Source of the DNA: Apostichopus japonicus
Taxonomy: Eukaryota; Echinodermata; Holothuroidea; Aspidochirotida; Stichopodidae
NCBI RefSeq assembly: GCF_037975245.1
Contig: NC_092569.1
Coordinates: forward strand, 16,939,501-17,003,500
Reading direction: 5' to 3'
Length of the DNA: 64,000 nucleotides
The translations under genes were made by a program, and so were the position numbers. Positions 6,046-63,057 of the stretch are shown one piece after another (the first letter of the stretch is position 1; each line of letters begins with the position of its first letter). A model generated the notes under the pieces. It ran no database searches. It was not told the DNA's origin and saw nothing but the letters and a program-made list of their open reading frames with translations.

Positions 6046-9000
6046 TCAAGAGGATGGTCGAATTTTCATCTCAACAGTTTGGGGGTTGCAGTAATTATTA
6101 TAATAAGAAAAGATCCTCTCTCCGTTGCCCCCATTGTAGTCCCCGTTGAGGTTTTCATAAGTACAAATTGAATGGCAGCTGCTTCCGTATTGGAAATGAT
6201 AGCAATAGTCACTTGTACAAGTAGAGCACCAATTATTCGAGTGCCACCAGCCACTTCTGTGCTTCTCTGCGCAGTTGAATGTATCGCATGCGTCGTTGTC
6301 TTGGTCGTATGTGCTGAACGGCTTACCTTTGTTATTAGAGAGATAATAACCTGCGAATTAAGAACAGATCCATCAGTGGTTAATTTGTGAACAACAAAAT
6401 TTAAGGTAAGCAATGTTGTCCTTTTCCACACCTTTCTATGAATCAGAAAACGTACTAAATTTTCACCAAAAAGGGTGGAGGGGGTGGGAAGTCTCAGTTG
6501 TCTAATTGAAGGAGAGTAAGAAACAATGTCTTTTTTCATATCTTTATTTTAGTTCAAGCACATTTTAAGAACTGGAATATTAACATTTAGTTTCCTGTAT
6601 TTTAACGAAATCATTTGCAAGGAGAGACTTTTTTTTACATAAATATATAGATTGTATAAATCATTTCCTCATGAGAAGTGCCGAGTTTCATAGAGCTTGA
6701 AATCAGGCTTATATTTGAATGGTGTTTATTGGTTTCCAGTAGCTCTGAGAAGTTGCATACTCACGCTACATGTTACACGTGAGTACGCATCATGTTTTCT
6801 TTGGTAGTCATACTATTGTTGTTTTGAGCAATGCAGCTAAAGTAAAAGTAATCGTATCGGATAAGTCATATGTTCTCAAACATTGCCGGGAACTGATCGA
6901 CTGATATATTATTATACGTTACATATTTGGCAAGGAACTTGTGTGCTTTTGTTCAATGTATGTGTGCTTGTTTATAACTGTGAAAACAAATCTCATGATC
7001 TTTATGTTGACCTTGTAATCTCTCCTACTAGATAGATACTTGTATAATGTTTAGCAAAATTTAATGACAATAATGTCTTGATTAGAATTAAAAGTAAATT
7101 TTCAAATGTTACTAATGCGACCTTTGTGTTTATTAAGTTTATTAATGTCATACACAGATATACACAAGACAAAATAACACGTTCCTTGATATTAATTAAT
7201 GCTGCCAGTATAGAGGAATATCATTTTAAGTCCATCACGTTTTGGCTTACACTTTTTGCATTATTTCTTTCTTGTTCCATAATTGGTGCTTGGGCTAAAT
7301 AAAGTAATAGTAGCTTTTATTGTTCGCACTACTAAAATGGACTCGAAGCTAGATGTCATACTATTGACCTAAACAGAGTGAGGACGTTTGTCGGAGCCGG
7401 AAAGGGGAGGGAGGTTTTATACAATAACATAATGTGTTACAGCATTTCAGGAACTAACAATGTTTATATTTAACATTAACATGTCATTTGTCACAATTTT
7501 AAAGTCAATTCTTTACGTAAGTTTGAAGTTTGATGTATCATTCTGAGAAAGAATATGAATTGCAGACATATTAACAACAAACCTGCAGCTCCACTGGGAC
7601 TGGTCCTGCTTCCCAGTTTATTCATTTTGTACTTGGTGTCCTCGGACTCTATTTGAAACTCTGTAAACTCAGAATATAGACTCGTCCCATCTGAAGTAGT
7701 AATATCAACTCGTAGTTTGGTAGGGTTCAGATTGGTCAGGTAATAGAGTTTCTCATTCCCAAGCCATAGGTTTCTGTTGTTACCAAAGCCTTCTTTGTAT
7801 GTAGTCCAGTTTTGATGAAAACTAGTTTCGTCATCAGTGCGACGTTGAAAAACCTATCATTGAAACAATAGAAAGAGGCATTGATATCAACGAAGGGAAA
7901 TCCATACGGTTTAAACATGATTAAGAAGCAAAGTTCTACAGATCGTCTTAAAGATTACATCATAAATAATATTTTAGTGAATTACCCTTTAAATTGTTGT
8001 CACTTTCTGGATTACAATCGATGGAACATAACTGAATAGTATTCATATGTTCAAGGTATTTTAAGATATTAATTGTCATATTTGGAACCTTCAGTCATGT
8101 TAATTTGTTGAATGTTTATCTAATGTAGTTTGCTGGTTTAATGTATATAACTGGAATGTATCCAGAGCATTTACTCATAAGAATACATGAGCAGCGTTGA
8201 AATGACTCACGGTCCATCCTTCGTCGCCGTGCATTTTGCAGTGAACACTGAATGGGGACTCTGTCCATCCAGAAGGCATGATTGTATATACGCCATCGCC
8301 ATGTCCAGCGTCATTAACATCCTGGCAGTCTGTATACAAGGATTCACAAGTTGCACCGTCACCTTCGTATCCTTCATTACAATAACACTGTCGTATTTCA
8401 TTCCTGACATCACACACAGCATCGGTACTACATATGTAGTCGTCACAGATCAGTCGGTTATTGTTACAAGAACACTTTTGTGTGCAGTCTTCGTTAACGG
8501 ATGTTTCTCCGTTCTAGAATTAAATTGATGAAAATATTAAAAGACTAATGTTTCAAATGGCTATTGTGCTTACATTTTGTGTTATTGTAACGCTATTACA
8601 TTGAAGTTTTATTTCTGTTTCGTTTGCATTGTCACTTGATATTGAAATTAGTCATGCGAATACTCACTGGTATAACCAGGTTGGCCTCTGCTACGAAACA
8701 CCCGCATTCACTCGCACTGATGCAGTCACTGCCTTGCATGACGAAACCAGCTGGACAGGTGCAGCCCTCAGTACCCAAACAGCTACTATTACAACCAGAT
8801 TGTCCGTTGGGATCTTCACATGTTGCTTGGCATGTACATATTCCGTAGATCATGTTCGTAGGACATGTAGAGATCAATGTACCTGTCAGTTTGTAAGACC
8901 AACAAAATACTTCCAATTTTGACAAGAATCATTGCAAATACCTCTGCCATGAAATATTATCATTTCCAAACTTTAAAGTAAAATAGTTAAATAAGAAGAA

Positions 9001-12000
9001 GCAACATTGAACAGATTATGCAGAGTGAAGAATACGGCTTTGAGGTATATATTTTTGAAATAATAAAGTTATGATTGTATTATTATTAACATTTGTTTGT
9101 ACTTTTTATTATTTTTTTTACTTACGTGCATTACTTTCGAGTGGTCCAATATGTGTAACCTTATATTGCCCCCATTCATCAGTGATACGAAATCCTCGGT
9201 ATGTTGTATAGAAAGAAGCTCCATTAGATAATTCTATATCCACACGAAGTTCGTAGTCTGCTTGGTTCGTCAAATATGATAACTTTTCATTGCCGAGCCA
9301 AAACTCAGTTGAGAGAAAACCAAATCCATCTTCATACTGTGACCAACTCCTATTGAAATTCACAGAACCGCTGTCGCGGCGTTCTATGACCTACGATAGA
9401 AGAGAAACAGATTGAGAATACTATCACCACTTAAATACACTCTCTTAATTGCACACAAATATGAAACGGACAATAGATTTTATCCAGTCATGTTGCTATT
9501 AACACAGATCATTTCCGAAAATAACAGCCCAATATCGACGTTACTGGATGGAGGATGCCACTTGTTGACGATCCCTACACATTGTTAAGTTATAACACCT
9601 ACATGCTAACATAAGGCTTTATCACGTTTAAAATATGACATACACATTTCCATTTAGACGTACCGTCCAGCCTCCTCCGCCAACGTCGTTGTTGCAGTAC
9701 ACCTCAAATGGTTCTTCAAAGCCATCTGGCTTGATAATGTATACTCCGCTAGAGTTGGACGTAGAACATTGACTTTGAACGTCTCGGCAGTCCTTTGGAT
9801 ATTCAGAACGTTGATAAAAGAAGTAATGAGCCACTGTAATAAAGAAATAAAAATATTGAAAAATTATATCATATGCATGCTTTGTGTTCAATTTCTAATA
9901 AAAACGTGTCACCGTATAATGATACTTAACCGATAAAGAAAATTTTCTGTGATTTTAGGAGATCGCTAAAACCGCAGCAGGAAAGTTGAACTAGATAATT
10001 GTTTTGAAAAGTAACATGGACACCTAACATCAAATTGGGTACATATGTCATTCCCTGTGTAAGAATACGTTGCATTTATCTATTTTTTTCTCTTTCTCTT
10101 TTTCCCTCTCTATTTTTTCTTTATTTTGTTTAGGGGGTAGGGCGATATTATATATATTATAAAACAATTGTCAAAAATATATGTTGTAATGTTTGCATTT
10201 TTGTTAATTTGTCGAAAGTAACACACTAAATACTGTCTCACACATATACTGTCAATGAAACAGAAACAAAAACAGAATTAAAAAAAAGAAAGTTATCTTG
10301 AAAATAACGAAACTCATTTATATTGGTTAACTACGTGTTTTATATTAGATGGAATGACAAAACAGATCAATTGAGGTTAATGGGTGAAAAATCTTACTTT
10401 GAGTGTCATCTGTAGTTGAAGGTAAACTTCTCCGATGAACAGTCTATTAATGAGAAGAAGAGTCATCAACAATATATGTCAATATGGTATGTTTATTGAT
10501 TGTAACTGCCAGTAAAGAACTATCAATTTTTCTCAATTTCATTTATGAAATAATCTTGTACAGGCAAATTAGAAATTTTGGATAAAAAAAAATGAAAATG
10601 ATTAATATTTTAAATGGTTATTCACGAACATTCTTACCTACGCCAGGATGTTAGATAACTTCATCCATTACAGTTAAACAATTATTCCATTTTAATTTTG
10701 AAATGTGTACCTAACTTAATAAAATGAGTAATAAACAATCAGAAATGACTGTAAATATTTTCCATAATAAAATCTATAAATATATATTTTCTTTTAAGGG
10801 GGGGGGGGGTGGGTGGGTTGGTTGACTTAACCTTAGCTAGATTTCAAACTCAATATATTTGTTAAGGTTTTCTTCTTATTTGCACTATAAATATTTGCAA
10901 AGGTATTGGCTATACATTCAAAGAACACAGATGCAAATAGAATATATTTTTGGGCAAAACTGTGTTAACGATGAAATATTGATGAAGGCTGAATAATTTC
11001 GAATTTTACTATTTTACATTAACGAAACATGTGAACAAAATATGTTTGTAAACATTAATTTTCATATAAACAGTTCTTTAAGTTCGATATGACATTTGCC
11101 TGTATTTTGTTTATAGAAGTAGTAACTTCAGTGAATGAAGAAAACGTAACAAATAATATTTGTCTCTTATATTCAAAATGGCAATTTGTACATCGTCGCA
11201 ACATGTTTAGACCGGTATATTTTACAATGGAAGTTTTGGTAGGAAATGGATTAAAGTAATGATTTTTGTATAGGTAAAGATCCTCAAAATGACATAAAAA
11301 TAAACTTCTTAGTCCATTGACGCAGAGATCGTATGCGGTGCTATCGTAGCGTTTTCAGGGATGATCAATGAATGACGATTGGAATTAAGAAAAACCTACT
11401 TGTGAAAGAAGTAATATTTTTGAATACTAACGAAACGACTCTGAATTAAATGATAACTTGAGCCTATCGTTTATAACATATTTGCCAGTGTTTCTAGCTT
11501 GATAAAACGTATCAATTATTTCAATAAATAAAGTATACGACGTGAGTTAATGTGTAAAACAACCACAGCAAACACTTTATGTCTAATGGAATTGAGTATA
11601 TGAAAGGAAATTAAGAGTTCTATACACCGTATATTGTATTTATTAATTAAGACCTTTCTTACATAATGAGAGTACACTATTGGTTGACATTGAAATACGG
11701 CACGGTATGAATTGTACTAATTGCATGCGATAGGTTTACACGAGATTTTGGTCGATGTAAATAAAAAATATGCTTTAAATTGCAAAAAAAAACTAAATAT
11801 AATACATGTGAAAGTACTTAGCGATATTCTTTATCGATATATCTGTGTTACAACCTGAGCTAACGTTACATTAAAGAAACAGTCCAACGAATTGAGGGTG
11901 CAATTGTTGTAAACGTCATAATTTGAAGTCACCGAAAACTAGGTTTATAGTATATTACCCATGCATATCCTTTTCAAATTCCAGGAGTATCAAAATATCG

Positions 12001-13941
12001 TAGTTAAGGGTTTTATTGTCAACTTAAAAACGACTTTTTTGATAGATTAAGAAATTAACTCAGTAATTGTGCATTAGTCTTAATCGTCAGGAGAGACCGG
12101 TATTTTACCGGAAACTTCTAAGTACTTTTAAGACAACAAGAAGGAAAATTTTGAACAAACGAGATAAACATATATACATAGATATTATTAGTTTAAACTA
12201 AACAACAATTTTAGGGTATATCATTGCAAGTAAAGTATAGCCTTTGAAGTTTACCCATGACATTATGCAAGGTAAAAATAAGGTTCATTCATATATTAAC
12301 CAATGCTTACTAAGAAGAAATGGAATAAAACTAATTGGGAAATATATTAGTAAGTTATAGTAGCAAGTTTTTTAAACAGATTTTCTTTCTGATTTAAAAT
12401 TAAGTAATCTAGACCGAAAGTATACCCAGTCTCGTTAAATGACGTTGATGGACAAACAAGGACAAAGATGACGAATTTTAATTACAAACTTTATCAAAAA
12501 GGGTTATTTCTTATGTCTAAGCTTTCAGCACACATATTTCCAAAGTTACTACATGGAAGTTTATGTTTTTCTAATAACAAACAACCTTATCATTTTACAG
12601 GCCCGCCTATAATATTTCAATAACTTTGTTGATACTTTGAGTATGATATAATTATATTGACAATGATTTTCCTTTGCTATCAATGCTCAAACATAATTTA
12701 AGACCTATTTGACAAAGAGATTAAGTAATGAAATGATCAAGAATTTTCAAGAATTTACAAATTTTCTCAATTAAACAATATATTATTAAAATAATTCAGT
12801 TTAGATTGATTCGATTCATAAGACTTTATTTGACTAGTGCAAACGCGTAACGGCGAACGCGCCAATTGGACAAGAAGTGCAGTAATTTTATGTAATAGAA
12901 AGCGGACTGCAATTATTATTATTAATATTATATTTTTTACACTTGATATAAGAAGCAAAAGTTGGATAATTGAATTAATCAAATTTAAAGCTTGTTTTTT
13001 ATTCGAGTACGATTTACCTATACTTTACTTTGTCAATTCTTAGCGTACCAATGTAGTCAAATCAATCTGTTACTAGGCAGTTATACATATCTATATAAAA
13101 CTTTTAGCGTCTTGATCATAGTTAATGACATTTAGTGAGATCTACGTTGCAAGTTTACAGTTTCTAAAATGAATAGAGTATAACTGTTCAACTGTCTTAA
13201 AATAACTTTATCAAATGTTCTATTTTATTTTGAAAATATTAACAGTTATGTACCTAACCATAAAGAAAAATATACGAATGTCGTTTTCAGCTTTAGTGTT
13301 ATTGCATAAATAAGCGACGAATGGGAAATAAATACACTTAGCCAGATACATAGGCAATAAGGTGCGATATTAATTGAAAATATGAGAGAAAGTTCATCAA
13401 GGCAATGTAAAATTTGAAATATAACTAAACAGAAAATATAATTTGTTATGCAATTTCTTTTATAAGTTGCAATGCAAATTTTAAAACAAAAACACACTTT
13501 TATGTAGGCTGCTGAAGATAGATTATTCATTTGGAAAGAAGGAATTTATATATAAGAAGACTTCGAAAAATACATTTAATTTTTTATTAGTGGCCATATT
13601 AAAACTGCATGAGCTACTAAAACTCAGAATGTTGTATTAAAAATTGTAAAACAGATCATCAAGTTATAACAAGTTTCCATTTTTATGTTGGAAAATTTAT
13701 AATCAAGCAGGCATGAAAAATACATGTCAAAAAAATTCCCAGTAGTTGAATTTTCTACATGATATTTTGTTTAAATTATAACATCTAACAAGCAACACAG
13801 AAACGTGGACGCAAAGATTGATGAGAAATAAGAACAGGAACTTTAAAATGTTTAACTCACCGTTTCTTCCGAGGACGTAAAGGCGCTGGTTGTTGTGAAC
13901 AAGAATGCAAATACTGCTCGAACAGCCACGGAGAGCTCCAT
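6046..13941 (-). CDS. G2: secreted FBG(partial)-TIL-EGF-FBG protein, 551 residues, 8 exons
   Basis: Exons in coding order: 13941-13861, 10443-10398, 9833-9664, 9390-9126, 8882-8668, 8513-8211, 7853-7583, 6350-6046. All introns are GT-AG. The lengths sum to 1656 bases with no internal stop. Residues 1-27: signal peptide (MELSVAVRAVFAFLF...). 28-42: short linker. About 43-187: first two exons of a fibrinogen domain (EYPKDC, GVYIIKPDG, GGGWT, FWLGNEKLSYLTNQ), lacking the third exon. 188-259: TIL-type Cys-rich module (CPTNMIY...GCTCPAGF). 260-281: TILa/VWC-like piece. 287-315: EGF-like module (CNEGYEGDGATC). From 321: complete fibrinogen domain with DQDND, SGWWHS, NLNGDYNG and VEMKIRPSS. The terminal exon has eight cysteines; ordinary FReDs have about two there. 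N-glycosylation sequons include NRS and NSS. It is probably a secreted lectin-like protein; ligand unknown. It diverges from G3 across a 7.9 kb spacer. Confidence 0.85.
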
Positions 13942-17407: not shown

Positions 17408-17731
17408 TTAAGACGACGGTCGAATTTTCATCTCAACGAATTGGTGGTTGCCGTAGTAATGATCATAATAATACGAGAAAATCCTCTTACCGTTGTCTAT
17501 ATTGTAAACACCATTTAGGTTGTCAATCATTCAACGTGAATTGCAGTTGCCGCTGCTGTATTGGAAAAGAAAAAAAAAAACAATGGCTATAGCTATCACA
17601 AGTAGAGCAATATATATCAGAGTGCCACCAGCCGCCTCTGTGTAGTTGTTCGCAATTGAAGTTACCACATGCGTCATTGTCTCGGTCATGCGTGCTGAAT
17701 TGCTTTCCTCTGTTATAATAGAAATAATAAC
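17408..17731 (-). pseudogene. Orphan FReD terminal exon, frameshifted
   Basis: A lone copy of exon 8 on the minus strand follows an acceptor CAG and ends at TAA. It starts YYFYYNRGKQFSTHDRDND and keeps GGWWHS and VEMKIRPSS. An A/T homopolymer (17571-17580 on the plus strand) shifts the frame in the Cys-rich loop, and a TGA follows shortly after. No exon 1-7 is seen upstream (to the right). The NRGKQFST start and the Cys loop resemble the plus-strand subfamily more than G2. A polyadenylation-like AATAAA lies at 17065-17070, and the 3' flank aligns with that of G2. It is a remnant of another gene copy. Confidence 0.8.
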
Positions 17732-21854: not shown

Positions 21855-24800
21855 ATGGAGTTTGTCTTGCTTGTAAGCGCATTTTTTGCATTTTCGTGTA
21901 CAACGATTGTCAACGTTGCGTCGTCAGATCAAACGGTGAGTTACATAATCTAGAGTAGTATTTGATTTTCCATTATATGAAATTTCTACATATATTTTTC
22001 AAGATCCAAATAGTTTGTAATTATTGTATTTACAAGAGAAGGTGTTCTAGATAATGTATAGAAGGAATATGATTATTGGTTGATACGAACGATAACGTTT
22101 CACATTTCAAAAGTTGTTTTTATCACAATGTTGAAGGCATAGTACATGATCTTTATATTACAACTCATAAAGCAAACCAGATTGTTACTATCTGAATGTG
22201 AATAGCATTAGAGTAATTGATTTTTTTCCTTTCATTCATTTAATTCAAACAAAAGAAAAATGGAAAATTCTATTATTTACTCTAAAAGTAATTTGTAGTT
22301 ACACCAACTGCCATTATTGCTTTTTCTTCACTTTGTGAATTTGTTCTTATATTAAATGAAACACATTTTGTCCACATATTTGTTTTCTTAAGAATAAAAG
22401 AATATAATGTATTCATTAATAGAGTACCGCAAATTAATAAAATTCAACCTAAGATATCGTGAACATATAATTTTACGTACAGCACACATTGAGATTGACA
22501 CATTGAAATGTCAAAAAATGTTCACATGTTTGATTTTCTTAAGTTACCATTACTACTAATATTCCATAGTCGAACAAATTTATTTACTTTCATTTGTGTA
22601 CTAAAATGTACCGTTCATATCCCTATTAAACTTAGCAAGAGCAAGGAGGATTTAGATGAAAACATTTTTTGCTATTGTTTCTTCATTCACGCAAAGAAAG
22701 CTTTATATGGTTGTATAAACTTCATATTAATTCATGTAATGAGTCAAATGATGTATTTATCTCAAAAATAAGACATTGCTTTCATTTGTTCATTAAAAAA
22801 AGAAGCCACGTGCATTTCCTAGTAGAGTTAGAAACAAATAAGTTCACTTCTTGTCATATATATATATATAAAGTTATGTTTTCATGGTTTTCATCTAAAT
22901 TATTTTATATAAATCCTCTGATGATTCCAGTAACAACTTTAACGACGTAAACTCAACTTTCGGTTAAAAACACTATAAACAATTTTTTGAATAAAATAGT
23001 CGGACTAGAAAGAAGTAAAATAATTATAATGACTCTTTACAAATGATAACCAACATATCATGTTAACTCATCTCCATTATATCGTTAGCAATATGTTGAT
23101 ATACGTTTATTTGCTAGAAATATGTTTCCTATGAACTGGTGTTCACGGCCATCATTAACTCAGCATACAACTGGCTGAATATTGGGTTGATAAACTTGTT
23201 CTATGGTAATATAAGTTGTCGACAAAATAGTTGAAAGAGTAAGCAATTACCAACCTCAGATGTAAACAGTAATCTGGGAAAAATATTCAGTTGTAACATT
23301 ATGTTTATTTGAGTCATACCATAATACTAATTAGCGAGATCGTCATCGAACTGGCTAAATTCAACTTATTGTTACGAATATCATTTAAATATTTAGTCGT
23401 TGGATACATATTATGCATTATGTCATCTACTTTGCTAATTAAAATACAACAACGAAACTTAGAAAAGAGCGACAGTATCAAGTTTGCATGGGGTTTCCTG
23501 AAAGCCATTTTCTTTTATTCTTTGATTCTTTCAAAATGTGGGACGTAAAATATACTTTTTGTCTGTGATGTCTCTCTTGGAAGATTAAGAGAGAGTGATA
23601 ATATTGTTATAAAAGTGCTCAAATAATTGTTAAGAAGATATAAATGAATACCTGGATCAGGGATAAGGCTGATGGGCCGGTAATATAATGGATCGGATTT
23701 GGAGTTAGTTCACTACATTTTTTTTCCAAGAGGATTTTATCTTACTCTGATGAGGTTACGAAATGATAATTAATAGTGCTAAGAATTTGACGTTACTGAC
23801 TTTACCTCTCTCTAGATTATTATCATACAGACAAATGGATAAGTTCTATAACCATGCTAATGGGCACAAAAATATCGTTTTTAAACATGCTAGTATCCTG
23901 AAAAGTTAGGGCGAAATGTGAAATAACAAAATTTACATTGATTATGTCTTTAAAACAGACTACTAGCAGTTACATTCATCAAGCTCGATCTTGTTAACGT
24001 TTAACATCATGAATAAACGTGAGCGGTGCTTCTTCGAATTTGTCAATATTCAACAAAGTTACACTTGTAAGATTTCTCTATGGACATTTTTAAGTATATA
24101 TCCCTAAATTGATCAATGTATTCATTTTGTATGGCTACCACCGGATCAATGTAGTCTTCAAACAAAGGTAACAGAAATTTATGTTAGGATGCAAAGAACG
24201 AATTTGGTTGCATTGACAATAATGTTCGCACGTTTAATAACGGTGAGATGTATCTCACGATTTCCACTATGAGAGAACACGTGCATTGATTTTTTTCCAT
24301 ATCTACAAGACATCATATATTATTTATTTGCAGAGTAATCATCAGCACAGCCTGCCTTCAACTACAGATGACACTCAAAGTGAGATATATGTTGCCTTTT
24401 ATAAGTTATTATATTTATGTTTACAGTACGTTTAATTTTGCTTTGGTGAGTAACACTATTTTTTTCAGTAATTGAGAGTACACGATGCTACAAATTTAAT
24501 CATCGTGTTATATCTCAATATAGCAATGCTCTTGGCAATGCAAAGAGGCAAGAGCAGTTGCTAAGTCTAATATTATAATTAATTTACACAAGTGAGAGTC
24601 AATAACATGCCAGGCGTTATTCACATTAGTCAAACTGTCTTTGGACAATGTCCTTGTCAAGAAATTCTTTTCGGTTAAATGTCCAAAACAAGTGGAAATT
24701 GAAATGTGTATTAACGGTATGTTTTTGAGATATTCATTGTGAGGATTATAACTTAATTCAAATATATATCCATTTTTTTTGCAATTATTATTATCACCTG

Positions 24801-43800: not shown

Positions 43801-46800
43801 AAGTGGAAATTAAAATGTGCATTTAACGGTATGTTTTTGAGATATTCATTGTGAGGATTATAACTTAATTCAAATATATCCATTTTTTGCAATTATTATT
43901 ATCACCTGCAAAATTAGTGCAGAAATTATGTCGCTTTTCTTACAGGTGGATCGTATTTCTTTTATCAAAGTTCTGAATATCCCAAGGACTGTCGAGATGT
44001 CCTACGTCAGTGTTGTACATCAAGTTCCAGTGGAGTATACCTCATCAAACCAGATGGTTATAAAGAACCATTTGAAGTATTCTGCAACAACGATGTAGAC
44101 ACAGGAGGATGGACGGTACGTCCATGACTATTTCAAACAAATGCTGCCAAGAGTTTGCTTTAAAATAAGTGTCGTGCTGCTATTTTCGGAGATACATAAT
44201 GCATGTCAATTTTTCAAACAATTTGATGATTAATTTATCACTGTAATATATTACAGTTGAAATATTTACTTAGCTATCAATATGTAACTATTGTGTAACT
44301 ATTTGGATTTCATTAGTACATATTTTTTGTAAAAATATTTGGTTTCTCATGAAGATGAAATGAAATGGATTTGTAAAGAGAAGCAAACATAGTTTTATCT
44401 CAGTTACCAAGATGACATAATTGTTGCATTCATATCATAACACTGAACGTGAACAATTATTTTTACAGAGAGTTATGAGTATATAGTTTGACCAAACGAT
44501 GTCAATATTTTACCAATTTCACTAGCTATCAATTGCAACCACCAGAAAAAACAACAAGCAACAGGAATATGTATTAAAACTCGTTTCTTTATGTAGGTCA
44601 TTCAACGACGTGAGGGTGGCTTTGTGAATTTTAACAGGAGTTGGTCACAGTATGAAGATGGATTTGGATTCCTGTCCTCTGAGTTTTGGCTCGGGAATGA
44701 AAGGTTGTCGTATTTGACGAATCAGGAAGTGTATGAACTTCGTGTGGATATTACTCTTTATAATGGGTCAGCCTTGTATGCTATTTACAAAGGTTTCCGT
44801 ATCACTGACGGATGGAGTCAATATATGATATCCAGTATCGGAGTATTGGAAAGCAATTTAGGTAAGTGGTTGAGATGATTGATAAAGTCTTAAATCAAGA
44901 ACTACCGATCGTTTACATTCATCTCCAAGTATTTTACATTCGTTCCCATCAATACAATGCAAACACGTTTCCTTCGTTTGATCATTGTGTACACATTTTT
45001 ATTGCGTTATTTCTAGCCCGGAAATTCTGGTTTTGCCATATATATATATAATATAATATAAGAAATATTACATATTTGTTTCACATCCAGGCTCAGCACT
45101 GTCAACCTGTCCTTCGAATATGATCTACAACACCTGCAGTTGCCAAGCAACGTGCGATGATCCCAATGGAGCGGGTGGATGTAATAATAACTGCCTGGGT
45201 AGTGAAGGTTGTAACTGTCCTACAGGGTTCTTAATGCATGGAAGTGACTGCATCCCTACCAGTGACTGTGGTTGTTTCATAAGAGATGAGAACTTGGTTA
45301 TACCAGTGAGTGCATCATTTTATTTAACTATATATTACTATTGCGACTACTCACGAAAGCAATGACTATTTTTGGTCTAATATATTGTTACTGTTTTGTA
45401 TTTTAGAATGGGGAAACATATGTCAACGATGACTGCACACAGAAGTGTTCGTGCAGCAATAACCGATTAAGCTGTGAAGATGACTACATGTGCAGTGCTA
45501 ATGCCGTATGTGATATTAACGCTGGAGTGAGACATTGTTCTTGTAATGAAGGTTATGGAGGTGACGGACTAAGTTGTGAACCTTTATATGAAGACTGTAA
45601 AGGTCTTTACGACGCCGGCCATACACAAGATGGTGTTTATACAATCCTTCCGTCTGGATGGTCGGGTTCATCATTTAGTGTGTACTGTAAAATGGATAAT
45701 GGTGGAGGATGGACAGTAAGTCTTTTGTTCTTTCTGACTGTTGAAACGTGTTAAGAGGTATTAGTTTTAATTTTAGCAGATGATCTGTCTAATATTTATT
45801 ATCAAAATATACACTTCGCTACAGAAATTACATTTCCGAGTTATTTACAATATTTAAATTTACAAGATACAATTCGAATACATTATTGAAAATACTAAAG
45901 GAACTCTGAATAATAGTAAACTTACTCAGTCCAGAGTAATCTATAAAAGTAAGAGACAAGAACTTTACATACAAGCTTATTCTAATGCGTCCTCTAGAAC
46001 AGCTTATAAACACAAAATGAACTGCTTTGCTGTTTCATACGGTTAAATGTCATGCATTTACTGATATTGCATTATCAAAACTTACAATTTCTTTAAACCC
46101 ATTGATTGCTCGGTAATAAAAGGTTTTCACTTTTTTACACATTTGCTCACACACTTTCAGGTATTTCAACGTCGCACTGATAATTCTACTAGTTTCTATA
46201 AGGACTGGACATCTTACAAGGAAGGATTTGGTGACGGTGAAAACTTCTGGCTAGGTAATGAAAAGCTTCATTACATGACAAATCGGAAAAATTACAAGCT
46301 TCGCTTTGACGTCACTACCTCCGACGGGACACCTAAATATGCTGAATATCCAGAGTTTCAAGTTGAGTCTGAAAGCAACAACTACAGATTGAATAAACTC
46401 GGAGATAGGAGTAGTGGCAATACAGGTTTGTAAATGCTCTTCCTCTTCTCTTAGCCTTTCGGTTTCAAGAGTTTGGTGCGTATTATATTCATATAAAAGC
46501 ACGTGCTGGCTGATCATCTGCAATGTTTATAGTTAATACCCCTTCTGTGCATAACAAATGTAATCAATTTCAATAAACGATATGTAACCATTATGTGTAA
46601 TTCTTACGCTTCAAACATTAAACCCTGGAAGTACAGCTGTTTGAGGAAGAGCTGATATGGGTCAAGGGTCATGAGTTCGACACTGTTCTTTTCGTGTGAG
46701 AGAAAGCAGTGGCACATTGTTTTAATTTTAAACCGAGTTTTAATTTTACTTTCTCTCGATTTTTAACTGGTAATGAATTAATACCAGTTATCCTACACAA

Positions 46801-47954
46801 AAGTTACATTTAACCGGTTCGGGAGCTAAAGTTAGAGTCATCATGTAAAGGACGGGCTGATTATGTTAACACAGTAGCTTTGGAGTCTGCGTTAATTTAA
46901 CATACAACCATGAACATAGCCTGAAGCAATTTAGTTCATCACAATATTAATACAGTTATAAGTGTTTAACATTTGGCAGCTTGATTGATTAAAGTTAAGA
47001 CTCACAAAAGATTCGTTTTTCAATCATCTCGAAGCAGATGGAGATTAAACACTAAACAATTATGCTACATCAGATTCGTTGATAGCAAATTACAATCTTC
47101 ACACAAACTCATGATCGGAAAACGACTACAGCAAACGGCTGACATTTTCACAAGTGAAACATGCTTACACACAAACACACACCCTGCTCGAATCATCAAA
47201 CCGTACAAAACATACATGCATTATGAGATGCACACAAGAAAACTGACCTTACAAACATGATTCAATGGTCATTTGTATAGTATAATTAAGAATCCTATAC
47301 TAGTGTGTCATTCGAATAGTTAGATGTTTCCTGTCCACTATGTTATACCAAAATGGTAAATACTGGAATTATTCATTCAAATTATCACTAAAACTATGCG
47401 TAGTTCTCACAGCCACGTAACTGATACATATAGATCAAACAATACATTCAAATCTGAAGTAATATGCTAATACATAGTATAACATATTTAAATAAGAATA
47501 AGAATACCACTGCGTAAATTGCAGTAATGTCGACTTAAGGTAAACTATAATCTAAACTTATAGCAATTAGAAAACATTGGGATTATTTGTTACTGCACGT
47601 TACCGTAATCAATGTACCAACCGACTTTCCTGTTTTTGTCTTTCAGGTGGTAACTTTGTTAATTACAACAGAGGTAAACAATTCAGTACACATGACCGAG
47701 ACAACGATGCTTGCGGTAACTTCCACTGTGCACAGCTACATAGAAGCGGCTGGTGGCACTCTAATAATCATTGCTCTTATTGTTATAGTTCAAATTATTG
47801 TCATCATTTTCAATACAGCAGCAGCTGTCAATCAATTTGTACCGATGACAACCTCAATGGAGTCTATAACGGTGAACGGGGAACACAGATTTTCACTGAT
47901 TACATCTACAACTGTAACATCGGATCCGTCGAAATGAAAATTCGACCTTCGTGA
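40841..47954 (+). CDS. G5: secreted FBG(partial)-TIL-EGF-FBG protein, 552 residues, 8 exons
   Basis: Exons: 40841-40921, 43351-43396, 43946-44115, 44597-44861, 45091-45305, 45407-45715, 46161-46425, 47647-47954. Splice sites are GT-AG, phases equal those of G2, G3 and G6, and the total is 1659 bases with no internal stop. The domain plan is that of G3: signal peptide, linker, two-exon FBG-A, TIL, TILa/EGF, full FBG-B. Exons and introns 1 to about 6 are almost identical to G3. The last exon (HDRDND, CSYCYSSNYC, RPS at the C-terminus) is closer to G1. FBG-A has an extra cysteine (DVLRQCCTS against DVQRQCSTS in G3). Intron 2 contains a 78-base insertion at 43632-43709. It is probably a recent duplicate, or converted copy, of G3 that is still functional. 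Confidence 0.87.
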
Positions 47955-51336: not shown

Positions 51337-51362
51337 CGACGATGACGATGATGATGATGACG
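51175..51362. repeat. Compound trinucleotide microsatellite
   Basis: AAT, then ACT, AAT and GAC/GAT triplets. The array sits where the SINE tail lies in unit 1 and replaces part of the SINE body. It creates artefactual poly-Asp/Thr open frames. Confidence 0.9.
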
Positions 51363-54316: not shown

Positions 54317-57300
54317 TCAAGAGGATAGTCGAATTTTCATCTCAACAGTTTGGGGGTTGCAGTAATTATTATTATAAGAAGAGATCCTCTCTCCGTTGCC
54401 TCCATTGTAGTCCCCGTTGAGGTTTTCATCAGTACAAACTATATTGCAGCCTCCGTGTTGGAAATAATGACAATATTCCCAATGGCAATCAGAGCACCAA
54501 CGATTCGAGTGCCACCAGCCACTTCTGTGCCTCTCTGCGCAGTTGAAGTTATCGCATGCGTCATTGTCTTCGTCGTATGTGCTGAAATGCTTTCCTTTGT
54601 TACTAGAGAGATAATAACCTGCGAATTAAGAACCGATCCATCAGTGGTTAGTTTGTAAACAAAACAAAAATAATGTAAGCAATGCTTTCCTTTTCCAGAC
54701 CTTTCTATGAATCAGAAACCGTACTAAATTTTCACCAAAGAGGGTGGGGGGTGGGGGCATCTCACTGGTCTAATTGAAAGATATTAAGAAACAATGTGTC
54801 TTTTCATACCTTTATTTTAGTTTTGACACATTTTAAGAACTGGAATATTAACATTTAGTTTCCTGTATCCTAACGGAAGCTTAGTGAAATATGTATGTTA
54901 GCTGGTCATTTCCCAGGAGGGATTTTTGCTTACATAAATATATATATATATATTGTATAAATCATTTCCTAGTGGGAGATGCCGAGTTTCACAGAGGTTG
55001 AAATCAGGCTTATATTAGAATGGTGGTTATTGGTTTCCCGTAGCTCTGAGAAATTGCATATTCACACTACATTTTTCACGTGAGTACACATCATGTTTTC
55101 TTTGGTAGTCATATTACTGTTGTATTGAGCAATGCAGCTATAAAATATTAGCAATCGTATCGGATAAGTCATATGTCTTCAAACATTGCCGGGAACTGAT
55201 CGACGTCACATGTTTGGCAAGGAGCTTGTGTGCGTTTGTTAAATGTATGAGTGTTTGTTTTTAACTGTGATAACAAAACTCGTAATATTTATGTTGACCT
55301 TACTCAATAGATACGTGTATAATGCTAAACAAAGCTTAATGACATAAACGTCTTGATTAGAATCAAAAGTTAATTATCAAATGCAACTTATGAACACTTT
55401 TGTGTTTATTTAGTTTATTAATAAAATACAAAGATAGACACAAGACAAAATAACACGTTCCTTGATATGTATGCAGCCAGTATAGAGGAATATGAAAGGT
55501 ATATCATTTATAGCCCATCACGTGTTGGGAGTAATAAAATAATAGTAGTCTCTATCGTTCACACTACTGAAATGGACATGAAGCAAGATTTCATCCTATT
55601 TACTTAACCAGAGTGAGGACGTATGTCGGAGCCGGAAAGGGAAGGGAGGTTTTATGCAACAACACAAAATGTGTTACAGCATGTCAGGAACTAACGATGT
55701 TTATATTTAACGTTCACATGCCATTTGTCACATTTTCAAAGTAGATTCCTTACGTAATTTGAAGTTTGATGTATCATTCTGTGAATGAATATGAATTGCA
55801 GACATTACACATATTAACAACAAACCTGCATATCCACTGGGACTGGTCCTGCTTCCCAGTTTATTCATTTTGTACTTGGTGTCCTCGGACTCTATTTGAA
55901 ACTCTGTAAACTCAGAATATAAACTCGTCCCATCTGAAGTAGTAATATCAACTCGTAGTTTGGTAGGGTTCTGATTCGTCAGGTAATAGAGTTTCTCATT
56001 CCCAAGCCATAAGTTTCTGTTGTTACCAAAGCCTTCTTTGTATGCAGTCCAGTTTTGATAAAAACTAGTTTCGTCATCAGTGCGACGTTGAAAAACCTAT
56101 CTTTGGAACAATAGAAAGAGGCATTGAAATCAACGAAAGGAAATCTAAACGGTTTAACAATACTTAAGAAGCAAAGCTCTACAGATCGTCTGAAAGATTT
56201 CATCATAAATTTGTAATGCTGAATTGTCCTTTAAATTGATGTCTGACTGATAACTGACTAGTATTCACATGTTCAATGTATTTTAAGATATGAATTGTCA
56301 TATTTGGAACCTTCTGTCATGCTAAATTGTTGAATGTTGGTCTAACGTAGTTTGATGGTCTAATGTATATACCTAGTGCGAATGTATCGAGAGCATTTAC
56401 TCATAAGCATAAATGAACAGCGTTAAAATGACTTACGGTCCATCCTTCGTCGCCGTGCATTTTGCATTGAACATTGAATGGAGACTCTGTCCACCCAGAA
56501 GGCATGATTGTATATTCGCCATCGCCATGCCCAGCGTCATGAACATCCTGACAGTCTGAATACAAGGATTCACAAGTTTCACCGTCACCTTCGTATCCTT
56601 CATTACAATAGCACTGTCGTATTTCATTCCTGACATCACACACAGCGTCGGTACTACATATGTAGTCGTCACAAGTCAGTCGGTTATTGTTACAAGAACA
56701 CTTTTGTGTGCAGTCTTCGTTAACGGATGTTTCTCCATTCTAGAATTAAATTGATGAAAATATTAAAAAACTAATATTTCAAATGGCTATTGTGCTTATA
56801 TTTTGTGTTATTGTAACGTTAATAAACTTAAGGTTTATTTCTGTTCCGTTTACATTGTCACTTGGTATTAAACTTAGTCATGCGAATACTCACTGGTATA
56901 ACCAAGTTGGCCTCTGCTACGAAACACCCGCATTCACTCGCACTGATGCAGTCACTCCCTTGCATGACGAAACCAGTTGGACAGGTGCAGCCCTCAGTAC
57001 CCAAACAGTCACTATCACAACCAGATTGTCCGTTGGGATCTTCACATGTTGCTTGGCAAGTACATGTTTCGTAGATCATGTTCGTAGGACATGTAGAGAT
57101 CAATGTACCTGCCAGTTGTTAATACCAAGAAAATGCTTTCAATTTTGACAAGAATCATTGCAAATACCTCTGCCATGAAATATGATATATTATATTATAT
57201 ATCATTTCTGAAGTTTAAAGTTAAATAGTTAAATAAGAAGAAGCAACATTAAAAACATTATGCATAGTGTAGGATATGGCTTTGATGTATACATTTTTTT

Positions 57301-59204
57301 AAATAATATAATTATGATTGTATTATTTGGATTAACGTTTTGTCTTTGCTTTTTATTTTTTTTTTACTTACCTGCATTACTTTCGAGTGGTCCAATATGG
57401 GTAACCTTATATTGCCCCCATTCATCAGTTATACGAAAACCTCTGTATGTTTTATAGAAAGAAGCTCCATTAGATAATTCTATGTCCACACGAAGCTCGT
57501 AGTCTGCTTGGTTCGTCAAATATGATAACTTTTCATTGCCGAGCCAAAACTCAGTTGAGAGAAAACCAAATCCATCTTTATACTGTGACCAACTCCTATT
57601 GAAGTTCACAGAACCGCTATCGCGGCGTTGTATGGCCTGTAACAGAAGAAAAACATATTGCGAATACTATCACCACTCAAATACACTCTCTAAATATCAC
57701 ACTTATATGAAACGGACAATTACATTTATCCAGTCATGTAACTATTAACAAAGATCGTTTCCGAAAAAACAGCCCAGTCTCGACGTTACTGAGTGGAGGA
57801 TGCAACTTGCCGATGACCCTGCACATTTTCAAGTCATAACACCTACCTGCTAACATAAGGCTTTCACGTTTTATCGTTTTATTTATAACACAGCTTATCA
57901 CGTTTAAACTATGATATGAGCATTTCCATTTAGACGTACCGTCCAGCCTCCTCCACCAACGTCGTTGTTGCAGTACACCTCAAATGGTTCTTCAAATCCC
58001 TCTGGCTTGATAATGTATACTCCGCTAGAGTTGGACGTAGAACATTGACATTGAACGTCTCGGCAGTCTTTTGGATATTCAGAACGTTGATAAAAGAAGA
58101 AATGAGCCACTGTAATAAAGAAATAAAATTATTGAAAAATGATATATTATGCATGCTTTGTGTTCAATTTACAACAAAATCGTGTCGCCGTATACTGATA
58201 CTTGACCGTTAAAGAAAATCCTGCTAAGAAATTGACAACTCTCTGTGATTTAACAGATTGCTAAAACTGCATCAGCAAAGATGGAACTAGATAATTGTTT
58301 GAAAAGGTACATGACCACTTTACAACAAATTTGGTAAATATATCATTTCTTGTGTTATAATACGTTGAATTAATTTATTTCCCCCTCCCTCTGTTTTTTT
58401 CTTTCTCTTTTTTCTTTATTTTTCGGGGGGGGGGTGGGTGGGGCCGATTGTTTGAAGTAACATTAACACCTTATATCAGATTTGGTACATATATCATTAC
58501 CTGTGTAAGAATACAATACATACATCTATTTTTCTCTCTCTTTTTCCCTCTCTCTTTTTTCAGTAACATTTTTCGGGGGGTGGGGCGATATGATTTATAT
58601 TATAAAACAGTTGTCAAAAGTGTAAGTTTGAATGTTGTTATCTTTTCGAAAGTGAGATACTAAATACTGTCTCACACAGATACTGTCAATGAAACAGAAA
58701 CAAAACCAGACATAAAAAAGGAAGTTAACTTGGAAAAAATGAAACTCATTTATATTGGTTAACTACGTGTGTTAATATCTAGATGGAACGACAAAACAAA
58801 GCAGTTAAGGTCAATGGGTGAAATATCTTACTTTGAGTGTCATCTGTAGTTGAAGGTAAACTTCTCCGATGAACAGTCTATTAATGAGAAGAAGAGTCAT
58901 TAAAAATATATGTCAAAATGTTCTGTTAATTGGTTGTAACTGCTTGTAAGGAACTATTAATTTTTCTCATTTTCATTTATAAAATACACATGTACAGGCA
59001 AATTAAGAATTTTGGATGAAACAAATTCAAAATGATTAATATTCTGATTGGTTATTCACGAACATTCTTACCTATGCCAAGATGTCAAAGAACTTCATCC
59101 ATTACAGTGATGCAATTATTTTATTTTAATTTTGAATGTGTACCCAACTTGGTGAAATGAGTTAAAAACAATCAGAAATGACTGTAAATATTTGCCATAA
59201 TAAC

Positions 59205-59278
<74 letters not shown>

Positions 59279-62200
59279 GGGAGGGAGGTGGGTTGGTTGA
59301 CTCAACCTTAGCTAGAATTCAAACTCAATATATTTCTGAAGTTTTTCTTCTTCTTATTTGCACTAGAATTATTTGCAAAGGTATTGACTATACATAGAAG
59401 GAACATAGAATAAAAATATAATATATTTTTTGCAAACTATGTAAGCGATGAAAAATTAATAAAGACTGAAGAAATTCGAATTTTACTTTTTTTAAATTAA
59501 CGAAAAGTGTGAACAAAATTTGTTTGTAAACATTAATTTTCATATAAACAGTCGTCCCATTACATCATTAAGTTCGATATGACATTTGCCTGTATTTTAT
59601 TTATATAAGTAGTAACTTCAGTATGAGATAAAAACGTGACAAATAATCTTTGATTGTTGTATATAACATAGCAATTTAGACATCGTCGCAATATGTTTAG
59701 ACTGGTATATTTTACAATAAAAGTTTTTGTTATCAAAATTGTATCGTTTCATTTGTTTGCAGGAAATGAAATAAAGCAATGATTTTTGTAATGACAAAGA
59801 TCCTCAAATTGACATAAAAAATAAAATTTCTTACACCATCGGCGCATATATCGTATGCGGTGCTATCGTAGCGTTGTCAGGGATGATAAGTAAAGTAAAG
59901 TCAAATTTATTGATATTCATCATAAAATGACAATTTAATAAAATGGACTACGGCATCTCAAAAATAGGTTAAACAGTTATCTATGTATAATACAATTCAA
60001 AGTTTTAATACTTCTAGGTAAAAATGATCGCCTAAACCGTTCTGTTCGCATACGTGGGATCGTGTAAAATCTACGTGGTTTCATGTAAAAATCAAAGAGA
60101 GGGTGATCGGAATCCTCGACTATAGAAGAAGCACACTGACAAATTAAACGACCAATAAAATCATCCGTCATGGTAGAATACAACTTGACGGATTTAATAA
60201 AGTAGTCTAATTGTCCTTTAGAACAGGATGATAACCAAACTGGGCCACAGTACACAAGGAAAGACTACACCATTGTCTGAAAAGGCCAAAGCTGCTTATC
60301 AAAATCTAAGCCAAAGCCGGCGAGCCTACGAATACAATATAATCTCTGGTTAGCTTTTGATGCCATATTGTTCACGTGGGTATTCCAAGTAAGCGAGCTG
60401 CTGAAGGTTAATCCAAAATATTTAAAACCTGATACAACCTCAATCACATTATTGTCAATGTAGTGAATGACGATTAGAATTAAGAAAAGTTTACTTGTGA
60501 AAGAAGTTATATCTGTGAATACTAACGAAGTGACTTTGAGTTAAATGATAATTTGAGCATATCGTTTATAACATATTTGCCAGTGCTTTATAGCTTGATA
60601 AAACATATCAATTATTTCAATGAATAAGTAATATGGCGTGAGTTAATGTGTAAAACAACCACAGCAAATACTTTATGTATTTTCGAATTGAGTATATGAA
60701 AAGAAATTAAGAGTTCTATAAACCATATATGGTATTTATTAATTAAGACCTTTCTTACACCGTGTAAGTACACTATTGATGAACATGGGAATACGGCTCG
60801 GTATGAATTGTACAAAATGCATGCGGTAGGCTTACACGAGATATTAACTGATGTAAATAAAAAATATGCTTTAAATTGCAAATAAACTAAAAATATTACA
60901 TGTGAAAGTACCTAGCGATATTTAATATCGATATATCTGTGTTACAAACTGATTAACGTTACATTAAAGAAAAAGTCAAACAAATTAAGGGTGAAATTGG
61001 AGCTCTGTTTATAGTAAAGTACCCATGCAGATACTTTTCAAATTACAAGAATATCAAAATATCGTACTTAAGGGTTTTATTGCCAAGTTAAAAACTACTT
61101 TTTTGATAGTTTTAGAAATTGACTTAATAATTATGCATTAGTCTTAAACGTCTGGGAGACCGGTATTTGGAACTTCTAAGTACTTTTAAGACAACAAGAA
61201 GGACACATTGTAACAAACGAGAAAACATTTATACACGTATATTATTTGTTTAAACCAAACAACAACTTCAGAGTTCTGACAATTGTCTAAGTTAACACAG
61301 TATATACTATAGTATATTAATTAACACGGTATATACTGTAGTATAGTATTGCCAGTGAATTATAGCCATTAAAGTTTACCAATGCAAGCATGGCATGTAA
61401 GATAGTTGCTAAGTTCAATTATTCAAGTTTAAAACAAGGTTACATTCAAAGATTAACCAATGCTTACTCAGAAGAAATGAAATAAAACTAATCGGGAAAT
61501 ATAGTGGTAAGTTAAAATAGGAAGTTTTTAAACATCTTTTCTTTCTGATTCAAAATTAAGTAATCTAGACCGAAAGTATACCTAGTCTCGTTAAATGACG
61601 TTGATGGACAAACAAGGACAAAGAAGACGAATTTTAATTACAAACTTTATCAAAAAGGGTAATTTGTTATGCCTAAGCTTTCAGCACAGATATTTCCCAA
61701 GTTACTACATAAGAGTCAATGTTTATCTAATAACAAACAACGTTATCATTTTACAGGCCCGCCTATAATATTGCAATAACTTTGTTGATACTTTGAGTAT
61801 GATATAAATATATTGACAATGATTTTCCTTTGCTATCAATGCTCAAACATAATTTAAGACCTTTGTGACAAAGAGATTAAGTAATGATATGATCAAGAAT
61901 TTTCAAGAATTTACAAATTTTCTCAATTATACAATATATTATTAAAATAATTAAGTTTGACTAGTGCAAACGCATACGGCGAAGGCGCCACTTGGACAAG
62001 AATTGCAGTAATTTTATGTAATAGAAAGCGGACTGCAATTATTATTCGATTACATGTTTTTCGCTTGAAATAAGAAGCAAAAGTTTGATACTTGAATTAA
62101 TCAAATTTAAAGATTGTTTTTCACTCGAGTATGATTAACCTATCCTTTACTTTGTCAATACTTAGCGTACCAATGTAGTCAAATCGATCTGTTACTAGGC

Positions 62201-63057
62201 AGTTATACATATCTATTTAAAACTTATAGCGTCTTGATCATAGTTAATGAAATTTAGTGAGATCTACCTTGGAACTTTTACAGTTTCCAAAATGAATAGA
62301 GTATAACTATTCAATTGTCTTAAAATAACTTTATCAAATGTTGTGTTTTATTTTGAAAAAAGTAAAAGTTATGTACCTAACTATAAAGAAAAACATACGA
62401 ATGTAGTTTTCAGCTTTAATGTTATTGCATACATCAGCGACGAATGGGAAATTAATACACTTAGCCAGATGTATAGGCGATAAGGTGCGATATTAATTGA
62501 AAATATGAGAGAAAGTTTACCAAGGCAATGTAACATTTGAAATATAACTAAACAGAAAATATATTTTTTTATGCATTTTTTTTCTAAGTTGCATTGCAAA
62601 TTTTAAAACAAAAACACTTTTCTGTAGGCTGCTGAAGATAGATTATTCTTTTGGAAAAAAGGAATTTATATAGAAGAAGAATTGTTTTTCGAAAAATTCA
62701 TTTAATTTTTTATCAGTGGCCACATTAAAACTGCATGAGCTACTAAAAACCAAAATGTTGTATTATAAATTGTAAAACAGATGATCAAGTTATAACAAGT
62801 TTTTCTTTTTTTGTTGGAAAATTTATAATTAAGCAAGCAAGAAAGAAACATGTCAAAAAAATGCCCAGTAGTTGAATATTCTACATTGAAATTATAAGAT
62901 CTAACAAGCAACACAGAAACGTGGACGCAAAGATTGGTAAGAACTAAGAACAGAAACTGTAAAATGTTTAACTCACCGTTTCTTCCGAGGACGTAAAGGC
63001 GCTGGTTGTTGTGAACAAGAATGCAAATACTGCTCGAACAGCCACGGAAAGCTCCAT
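54317..63057 (-). CDS. G6: secreted FBG(partial)-TIL-EGF-FBG protein, 550 residues, 8 exons
   Basis: Exons in coding order: 63057-62977, 58877-58832, 58109-57940, 57636-57372, 57108-56894, 56739-56437, 56096-55826, 54618-54317. Splice sites are GT-AG, the phases match G2, and the total is 1653 bases with no internal stop. The signal peptide is identical to G2 (MELSVAVRAVFAFLF...). Domains: linker with TVHRRSLPSTTDDTQ; two-exon FBG-A (AIQRRD, FWLGNEKLSYLTNQ); TIL module; TILa/EGF; full FBG-B (DEDNDACDN, SGWWHS, NLNGDYNG, VEMKIRLSS). FBG-A has an extra Cys (DVQCQCSTS against DVQSQCSTS in G2). The last three residues before the stop are LSS, not PSS. Intron 1 carries a LINE fragment and a TA microsatellite, and intron 2 a local tandem duplication. 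It is intact and probably functional. Confidence 0.85.
58298..58600. repeat. Tandem duplication in G6 intron 2
   Basis: Two copies of about 150 bases (about 58298-58447 and 58448-58600). Each has TTTGGTA(A/C)ATATATCATT, a pyrimidine-rich stretch, and a TTTTTCGGGGGG run. Unit 1 has a single copy at about 10003-10150. Confidence 0.65.
59208..59276. repeat. (TA)n microsatellite in G6 intron 1
   Basis: A run of TA repeats of about 69 bases. The equivalent place in units 1 and 2 has only a short AT-rich stretch. Confidence 0.95.
59888..60463 (-). mobile_element. 3' fragment of a non-LTR retrotransposon (LINE)
   Basis: On the minus strand two adjacent reading blocks give the C-terminal end of a reverse transcriptase: FKYFGLTFSSSLTWNTHVNN...RLYCIRRLAGFG, then YCGPVWLSS, DSDHPLFDF and RTERFRRSFLPRSI. 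This is the usual end of CR1/L2-like ORF2 proteins. The blocks are in different frames, so it is dead. The 3' end has short TTTAC repeats. It lies in G6 intron 1; unit 1 lacks it near 11367. Confidence 0.8.

Follow-up and report, generated by a model that had tools for sequence, protein, structure and literature searches.

The sea cucumber Apostichopus japonicus carries a very large expansion of fibrinogen-related proteins (FREPs) in which two hypervariable loops are set in a largely invariant C-terminal fibrinogen (FBG) exon. We characterized these genes in a 64,000-nucleotide stretch of RefSeq assembly GCF_037975245.1 (contig NC_092569.1, below C9, positions 16,939,501-17,003,500; hereafter the window, whose own numbering is used for gene coordinates) and across the rest of the genome. 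The proteins combine a signal peptide, an incomplete FBG domain (FBG-A), TIL, TILa and EGF modules and a complete FBG domain (FBG-B). On balance, and without great firmness, we incline towards reading these soluble, probably secreted FREPs as a germline-diversified recognition set with a conserved stalk and a variable head.

Four intact genes of this type lie in the window. Their eight exons are labelled SP (signal peptide), E2, A1 and A2 (FBG-A), TIL, TILa-EGF-B1, B2 and B3 (FBG-B from B1 onward):

6046..13941, minus strand: G2, intact two-FBG gene, 551 aa (splice sites, frame, Pfam)
G2 exons, minus strand: 13941-13861 SP, 10443-10398 E2, 9833-9664 A1, 9390-9126 A2, 8882-8668 TIL, 8513-8211 TILa-EGF-B1, 7853-7583 B2, 6350-6046 B3
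21855..28873, plus strand: G3, intact two-FBG gene, 556 aa (splice sites, frame, Pfam)
G3 exons, plus strand: 21855-21935 SP, 24334-24379 E2, 24838-25007 A1, 25484-25748 A2, 25959-26173 TIL, 26274-26582 TILa-EGF-B1, 27021-27285 B2, 28554-28873 B3
40841..47954, plus strand: G5, intact two-FBG gene, 552 aa (splice sites, frame), 93% identity to G3
G5 exons, plus strand: 40841-40921 SP, 43351-43396 E2, 43946-44115 A1, 44597-44861 A2, 45091-45305 TIL, 45407-45715 TILa-EGF-B1, 46161-46425 B2, 47647-47954 B3
54317..63057, minus strand: G6, intact two-FBG gene, 550 aa (splice sites, frame), 92% identity to G2
G6 exons, minus strand: 63057-62977 SP, 58877-58832 E2, 58109-57940 A1, 57636-57372 A2, 57108-56894 TIL, 56739-56437 TILa-EGF-B1, 56096-55826 B2, 54618-54317 B3

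Exon lengths were shared among the four genes (SP 81 nt, E2 46, A1 170, A2 265, TIL 215, TILa-EGF-FBG-B1 303 or 309, B2 271 or 265, B3 302-320 nt), as were exon phases (SP 0-0, E2 0-1, A1 1-0, A2 0-1, TIL 1-0, TILa-EGF-FBG-B1 0-0, B2 0-1, B3 1-stop). All introns were GT-AG, with CAG/GTTTGT or CAG/GTTGGT at the B2 donor. A direct splice from the strong SP donor to A1 was ruled out by a phase clash (0 versus 1), which the 46-nt exon E2, conserved across the four genes, resolves. An earlier note on this DNA, made from the sequence alone, had described four intact genes of 550-556 residues with common exon lengths and phases between positions 6046 and 63057. Our models agree with it to the base, 6046 being the end of the G2 stop codon and 63057 the G6 start codon. 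Pfam, run on G2 and G3, identified Fibrinogen_C in two stretches of each protein (E 3.6e-79 for G2 and 4.9e-87 for G3), TIL and TILa above cut-off in both, and EGF_3 above cut-off in G3 and below it in G2. This was the domain check that the note had proposed; with the exon models it bears out the order signal peptide, incomplete FBG, TIL, TILa/EGF, complete FBG. The signal peptide was assigned by eye, and secretion is on that basis probable.

G2 and G3 differ by 1.32 synonymous substitutions per site (dS), a distance at which ratios of nonsynonymous to synonymous change (dN/dS) are rough. Between them dN/dS was 0.10 in A1, 0.14 in A2, 0.21 in TIL, 0.11 in the TILa exon, 0.16 in B2 and 0.09 in B3, with 0.53 in SP and 0.48 in E2. 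Both FBG parts and the bridge between them thus appear to be maintained by purifying selection, and ratios this low despite a dS of ~1.3 exclude an architecture assembled by chance. The claim that the arrangement is no gene-prediction artefact holds, as the domain exons are all under purifying selection in this comparison and the order was kept in all 30 other two-FBG loci that we fetched.

The genome (671.58 Mb, 35 contigs) was searched with the G3 exons A1, A2, TIL and TILa-EGF-B1, and matches were chained by position. For each exon the best 150 of 595-1333 initial candidates were scored, making all copy numbers lower bounds. At least 42 strict loci contained the four tested exons in order, and at least 86 loci, the strict ones included, contained at least one FBG-A exon plus a TIL or TILa exon. 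Two-FBG loci were mostly on C9, with some on C20. Four of the strict loci are the window genes, and 20 were fetched, chosen for having four exons (one of them, L012, is the window gene G1); 10 of the 44 looser loci were also fetched. The strict pieces contained A1-A2-TIL-TILa/EGF-B2 in 20/20 cases, together with B3 in 19 and E2 in 16. The looser loci, with one or two exons absent from the matches listed, contained A2-TIL-TILa/EGF in 10/10 cases and A1 in seven; the fetched piece of the other three stops <500 bp upstream of A2. TIL identity went down to 35-50% in the looser loci, which suggests that the domain order is old within this genome. The order reported for the window therefore stands, but as part of a very large and widespread FREP expansion rather than as the small local cluster of chimeric genes that the earlier note had seen.

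FBG exons were spread over most of the 37.5 Mb of C9 (4-36 Mb); among them is an array on the minus strand at 16.17-16.72 Mb, spaced by roughly 12-17 kb. On C20 (8629399-8633607), two TIL exon matches ahead of a TILa exon hint at a TIL duplication. G3 exons A1, A2, TIL, TILa and B3 recurred 74.7 kb away with 100% protein identity (C9:16,889,650 versus 16,964,340, window position 24,840), and exons of the degenerate window gene G4 recurred with equal scores (C9:16,899,338 versus 16,974,018). Either a block of the chromosome was duplicated very recently, or haplotypes were left unmerged in the assembly.

Variability was concentrated in the terminal exon B3. In its alignment of 36 rows (33 from the loci and the window, and three of six distant copies, L047, L048 and L051 being left out), most of the exon formed a nearly constant frame (FST.DxDND, GWWH, CTxxNLNG.YNG, EMKIRP). 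Two variable stretches, HV1 and HV2, interrupted this frame and are located in G3 and G2 as follows:

28667..28753, plus strand: HV1 of G3 FBG-B, hypervariable cysteine-framed Tyr/Ser-rich insert, lying between WWH and CTDDNLNG
28808..28828, plus strand: HV2 of G3 FBG-B, hypervariable segment preceding CNIGSVEMKIRP
6166..6240, minus strand: HV1 of G2 FBG-B, from the B3 alignment
6091..6111, minus strand: HV2 of G2 FBG-B, from the B3 alignment

No two of the 36 HV1 sequences were the same. The insert was usually 24-30 residues long (16-38 overall; a stop truncates the row with the shortest) and contained four cysteines in 28 rows, five in six and three in two. Tyrosine and serine made up 42% of HV1 and 49% of HV2, compared to 13-18% of the B3 frame, A2 and B2. 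Six distant C9 copies (L046-L050 at 19-35 Mb and L051 at 6.33 Mb) also showed Tyr- or Cys-rich inserts between WW and NLNG, so the loop may be general in the FREPs of this genome.

For substitution rates we compared 14 close pairs with no gene in common, picked greedily from the lowest dS upward, and dropped pairs with dS <0.005 or ≥0.6. Ten pairs were of two-FBG genes, from which the A1 and A2 values come, and four were of single-FBG genes. Nonsynonymous divergence (dN) was 0.028 in A1, 0.033 in A2, 0.054 in TIL, 0.063 in the TILa exon, 0.052 in B2 and 0.079 in the B3 frame, rising to 0.229 in HV1 and 0.375 in HV2. The corresponding dN/dS values were 0.25, 0.25, 0.46, 0.41, 0.35, 0.35, 0.73 and 2.14. 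In the 11 pairs without window genes, dN/dS was 0.65 for HV1 and 3.78 for HV2 (62.8 nonsynonymous and 4.2 synonymous changes), or 0.92 pooled; the nonsynonymous share differed from that of the rest with p 1.9e-6 for HV1 and 4.4e-9 for HV2 (rounded, pooled counts), and the highest dN fell in the HV stretches in 10 of the 11. Among 493 sliding windows, 19 of the top 20 were centred on HV1 or HV2. The ten two-FBG pairs alone still gave the highest dN in the loops (0.18 in HV1, 0.26 in HV2), with dN/dS of 0.54 and 1.13. By these estimates the loops evolve at 5 to 9 times the rate of FBG-A. FBG-A is without the ligand-site part and changes most slowly of all regions, as a scaffold would.

The loops were placed relative to the ligand site of known FBG lectins. 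FIBCD1 is described with an acetyl pocket formed by Tyr405, His415, Tyr431, Trp443 and Ala432, beside a Cys401-Cys414 disulfide that corresponds to Cys206-Cys219 of tachylectin-5A (PMC3908420). We aligned G3 FBG-B to tachylectin-5A with HV1 omitted from the query, and took the cysteine before NLNG as Cys414. HV1 falls directly before the Cys414 equivalent. Tyr431-Ala432 align with Gln-Ile immediately before HV2, and position 443 falls in a gap at HV2, an uncertain part of the alignment that was read from G3. The Tyr405 equivalent was His in 34 of the 36 rows (Asn in one, Tyr in one), and the His415 equivalent was Thr in 33 (Ala in two, unread in one). The canonical S1 acetyl pocket of the ficolin/tachylectin type was thus not found in FBG-B, judged from 36 rows at 405 and 415 and from G3 at 431-443. 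The aspartates of the D-x-D calcium site were present, the second in 36/36 rows and the first in 30/36. The region where the acetyl pocket is missing appears to be the one that also bears the variability. FBG-B matched ficolin-1 at 6.5e-37 and matched tachylectin-5A by sequence. Unlike ficolins, G2 and G3 had no Pfam match to a collagen-like region, and they differ from ficolins, tachylectin-5A and FIBCD1 in the HV1 insert before Cys414, the second FBG in front and the His/Thr at 405/415.

Together, these observations suggest a division of labour along the protein. The conserved N-terminal part, FBG-A without its ligand-binding subdomain plus TIL-TILa-EGF, would be a stalk and probably an oligomerisation platform, and the complete C-terminal FBG-B would be the binding head. 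With two Tyr/Ser-rich hypervariable loops where the residues of the acetyl pocket are not conserved, paralogues should bind different targets. Hypervariable loops also make a role in immune recognition likelier, and such a role is what we would propose. Numerous copies whose variability centres on the ligand site are what a recognition repertoire calls for and what was found here, the loop limits having been drawn post hoc and the site placed by sequence alignment. More tentatively, and with clearly less than even confidence, we suggest an antibody-like use of the FBG fold, in which a conserved two-FBG/TIL-TILa-EGF scaffold carries two cysteine-framed loops replacing the acetyl pocket and each paralogue has its own specificity, across at least 86 and perhaps well over a hundred loci.

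Several points weigh against a diversified recognition set. HV1 dN/dS was below 1 in all three sets of pairs, with no nonsynonymous excess, and the fall of HV2 from 2.14 and 3.78 to 1.13 in two-FBG pairs means that its excess comes mostly from single-FBG genes. Positive selection was not demonstrated for HV1, nor for HV2 within the ten two-FBG pairs. dS was raised in B3 too, pointing to gene conversion or mutation, and the HV limits were drawn after inspection of the alignment; for both reasons gene conversion or relaxation may be involved, and relaxed constraint could explain much of the HV variability. The placement of the loops at the ligand site is a sequence alignment, weak around HV2. 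The structure model of TIL was poor (pLDDT 64), and a phase-compatible A2-TIL intron was seen in 24 of 30 other two-FBG loci, not in every one. Some copies are broken: L014 has an in-frame stop in B3 and L020 one in A1, both otherwise ordered two-FBG loci that are either pseudogenes or assembly errors. Lastly, the architecture is known here from genomic sequence alone.

Several of these points would fit a different function, which we consider rather unlikely but the strongest of the competing explanations. The proteins could be matricellular or repair factors, acting in visceral regeneration, wound sealing or matrix assembly after evisceration, with loops that vary by relaxed constraint in a redundant tandem family. 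The expanded FREPs of A. japonicus are reported to be up-regulated, both as mRNA and as protein, during the early and middle phases of visceral regeneration (PMC5638244), and the TIL-TILa region of G3 (residues 193-309) matched FCGBP (8rde) as the closest among solved structures. The HV1 ratios and the HV2 ratio of 1.13 also agree with relaxation. Relaxation alone, however, leaves the kept cysteine frame (four cysteines in 28/36 rows) and the Tyr/Ser bias unexplained. The link to regeneration is at the level of the family, because these genes are not named in the text of PMC5638244 available to us.

We consider it improbable that these are protease-inhibitor lectins, in which TIL would be a working serine-protease inhibitor aimed by the FBG head, for example at microbial or gut proteases. 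PF01826 is named for inhibitors, and the best Foldseek match of the TIL model, a weak one, was the Apis chymotrypsin inhibitor 1ccv (E 0.02), followed by mucin and von Willebrand factor modules. That fold model, however, is the poor one noted above. By sequence the TIL profile matched FCGBP at 6e-13. Weak matches to fibrillin (0.015) and von Willebrand factor (0.025) followed, and the inhibitor BSTI came at 0.27. The loop between the fifth and sixth cysteines, which we take to be the inhibitory site, reads NNT, NSS, NSD, NRD, NST and so on, with no constant residue. TIL seems likelier to be a structural disulfide-rich linker than a protease inhibitor. The TIL-TILa modules are shared with FCGBP, von Willebrand factor and mucins. 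FCGBP and zonadhesin-like proteins have the assembly VWD-C8-TIL-TILa, whereas of these Pfam found just TIL and TILa in G2 and G3, with no VWD domain.

The structure of FBG-A suggests how the two-FBG order may have arisen. In G3 the module is as follows:

24838..25748, plus strand: FBG-A module of G3 (A1 + A2), phase 1 on either side, without a stop or a third FBG exon

FBG-A is built from two exons resembling the first two of the three-exon FBG-B. In FBG-B the third exon bears the stop codon as well as the calcium motif and the ligand-site region, and on account of that stop it could not be retained inside a protein. It is the lack of this exon that leaves FBG-A incomplete; the two exons that it does have form a phase 1-1 module that fits before TIL. 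With phase 1 at both ends, A1 and A2 can be inserted or removed at a phase-1 junction without a frame shift. We suggest that the first two exons of an FBG gene were placed as such a module with a signal-peptide exon upstream and a phase-1 TIL exon downstream. In a tree restricted to these loci (with A2 alone from the looser ones, and no other FBG genes of this genome), 34 A2 exons and 34 B2 exons were split by one branch with a support of 100/99 from few columns, indicating a single origin of FBG-A among these genes.

Relatives with a single FBG were also present. TIL and TILa exons without A1 or A2 among the matches listed were found at 31 loci (34 including three with one of the two), and 10 of these were fetched with ~4.5 kb upstream. 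TIL-TILa/EGF-B2-B3 was complete in 10/10, and A1 or A2 was found within that upstream sequence at E 1e-3 in 0/10. A different 70-nt signal-peptide exon with a GTAAGT donor was present at 6/10 loci, in phase 1, the phase needed by TIL; for the other four, a search that demanded phase-1 donors found no start within ~4.5 kb upstream. In a tree of TIL and TILa the single-FBG loci were nested among two-FBG loci, requiring three changes (midpoint rooting, partial support). Loss of FBG-A would be the simpler reading for these loci, the direction being unproved. It is very improbable that the two-FBG genes are mis-joined neighbours, with the FBG-A exons in a separate upstream gene from TIL-FBG-B and the order a by-product of dense tandem duplication, for although TIL-TILa-EGF-FBG exists stand-alone with its own signal-peptide exon, that exon had no match in the 30 two-FBG pieces, which all keep the domain order, the A2-TIL introns are 178-848 bp with a phase-1 donor and acceptor in the 24 loci (lenient scan), and searches with FBG-B third exons turned up no third FBG exon in the A2-TIL interval at E 1e-3 (20 loci) or 1e-2 (10 loci).

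Three further members or remnants of the family lie in the window:

301..611, plus strand: G1, terminal FBG-B exon only, with E2 to B2 left of the window (locus L012)
32346..36674, minus strand: G4, degenerate copy, pseudogene
17565..17723, minus strand: isolated fragment of a terminal FBG (B3) exon

G1 is a two-FBG gene, as E2 to B3 were found in L012 (the signal-peptide exon lying outside that look). G4 has a stop within the SP exon, a truncated TIL, and interrupted B2 and B3 exons, and A1 and A2 were absent among the best genome-search matches listed for its locus. The gene copies of the window sit on repeated segments of 72-92% identity. Ten further open reading frames in the window had no Pfam match at E 0.1, and tandem repeats of the ATACTA and GACGAC type were observed at 51177-51362, at and after the end of one of these unmatched frames (50779-51180). 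On the mitochondrial contig C35, COX1 is open throughout under the echinoderm code, with 11 internal TGA codons, and translating AAA as Asn yields the conserved stretch RMNNMSFW. The genes there, labelled from their reading frames, follow the echinoderm-like order COX1-ND4L-COX2-ATP6-COX3-ND3-ND4, in line with the source of the DNA. Elsewhere in the assembly, several COX1-like fragments on C29 (14745-31219), besides the mitochondrial contig C35, may be nuclear mitochondrial DNA or an assembly leftover.

FREPs have been reported before from sea cucumbers. In A. japonicus they are described as the most expanded family, with 21 in one tandem cluster and mainly on one linkage group (PMC5638244), and the loci described here share this centring on one linkage group and the tandem clusters. 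A Holothuria FREP rises in the intestine after lipopolysaccharide (LPS) (PMC2702171), the coelomic fluid of H. tubulosa is reported to contain FREPs (PMC12119288), and the H. glaberrima genome preprint mentions them in at least three places (PMC13228809). One fibrinogen-like gene was 2.58-fold up in A. japonicus coelomocytes 4 h after LPS (PMC4264123), a paper that also cites the absence of a rise in H. glaberrima. Our genes share the animal group and the FBG domain with these FREPs (A. japonicus, Parastichopus FREP-A and Holothuria); neither the two-FBG/TIL/TILa/EGF order nor hypervariable loops are described in the portions of those sources available to us. The domain order was likewise not found in the literature that we searched by titles and abstract starts, with subscription journals, protein databases, bioRxiv and supplements outside the search. 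As far as this search reaches, the arrangement is undescribed, in genes that are FREPs by a Fibrinogen_C match above cut-off in G2 and G3.

The earlier note had called the arrangement unfamiliar, which is true in part. An Anopheles FREP may contain two or three FBG domains, mostly incomplete ones, joined by hinges of ~20 or 150 aa, with no mention of a TIL-TILa-EGF bridge in the available text (PMC1242226). Since several FBGs in one protein are known from Anopheles, what appears new is limited to the TIL-TILa-EGF bridge and to an FBG-A of fixed two-exon structure. Mollusc FREPs consist of one or two IgSF domains plus FBG (PMC7588048). They too form a large FBG family, but Pfam found no Ig domain in G2 or G3. 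The variable part of mollusc FREPs is the Ig region, whereas here it lies within FBG-B. The sea urchin SpTransformer (185/333) genes, described as an immune family, likewise form a large diversified family in an echinoderm; to our knowledge they are unrelated to these genes in sequence.

The interest of these genes lies in the scale of the family and its hypervariable head, more than in the four window genes themselves. As a phase 1-1 module, FBG-A illustrates how a C-terminal domain may be relocated to the interior of a protein via loss of its stop-bearing exon. The FREP expansion is a headline feature of the A. japonicus genome, and the parts of the literature covered here give no molecular reason for the copy number. 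An unchanging scaffold whose binding site bears two hypervariable loops would offer a concrete and testable answer: different heads for different targets. If this is true, the diversified recognition systems known from invertebrates would include one built on FBG, in an animal that is farmed and suffers from bacterial disease.

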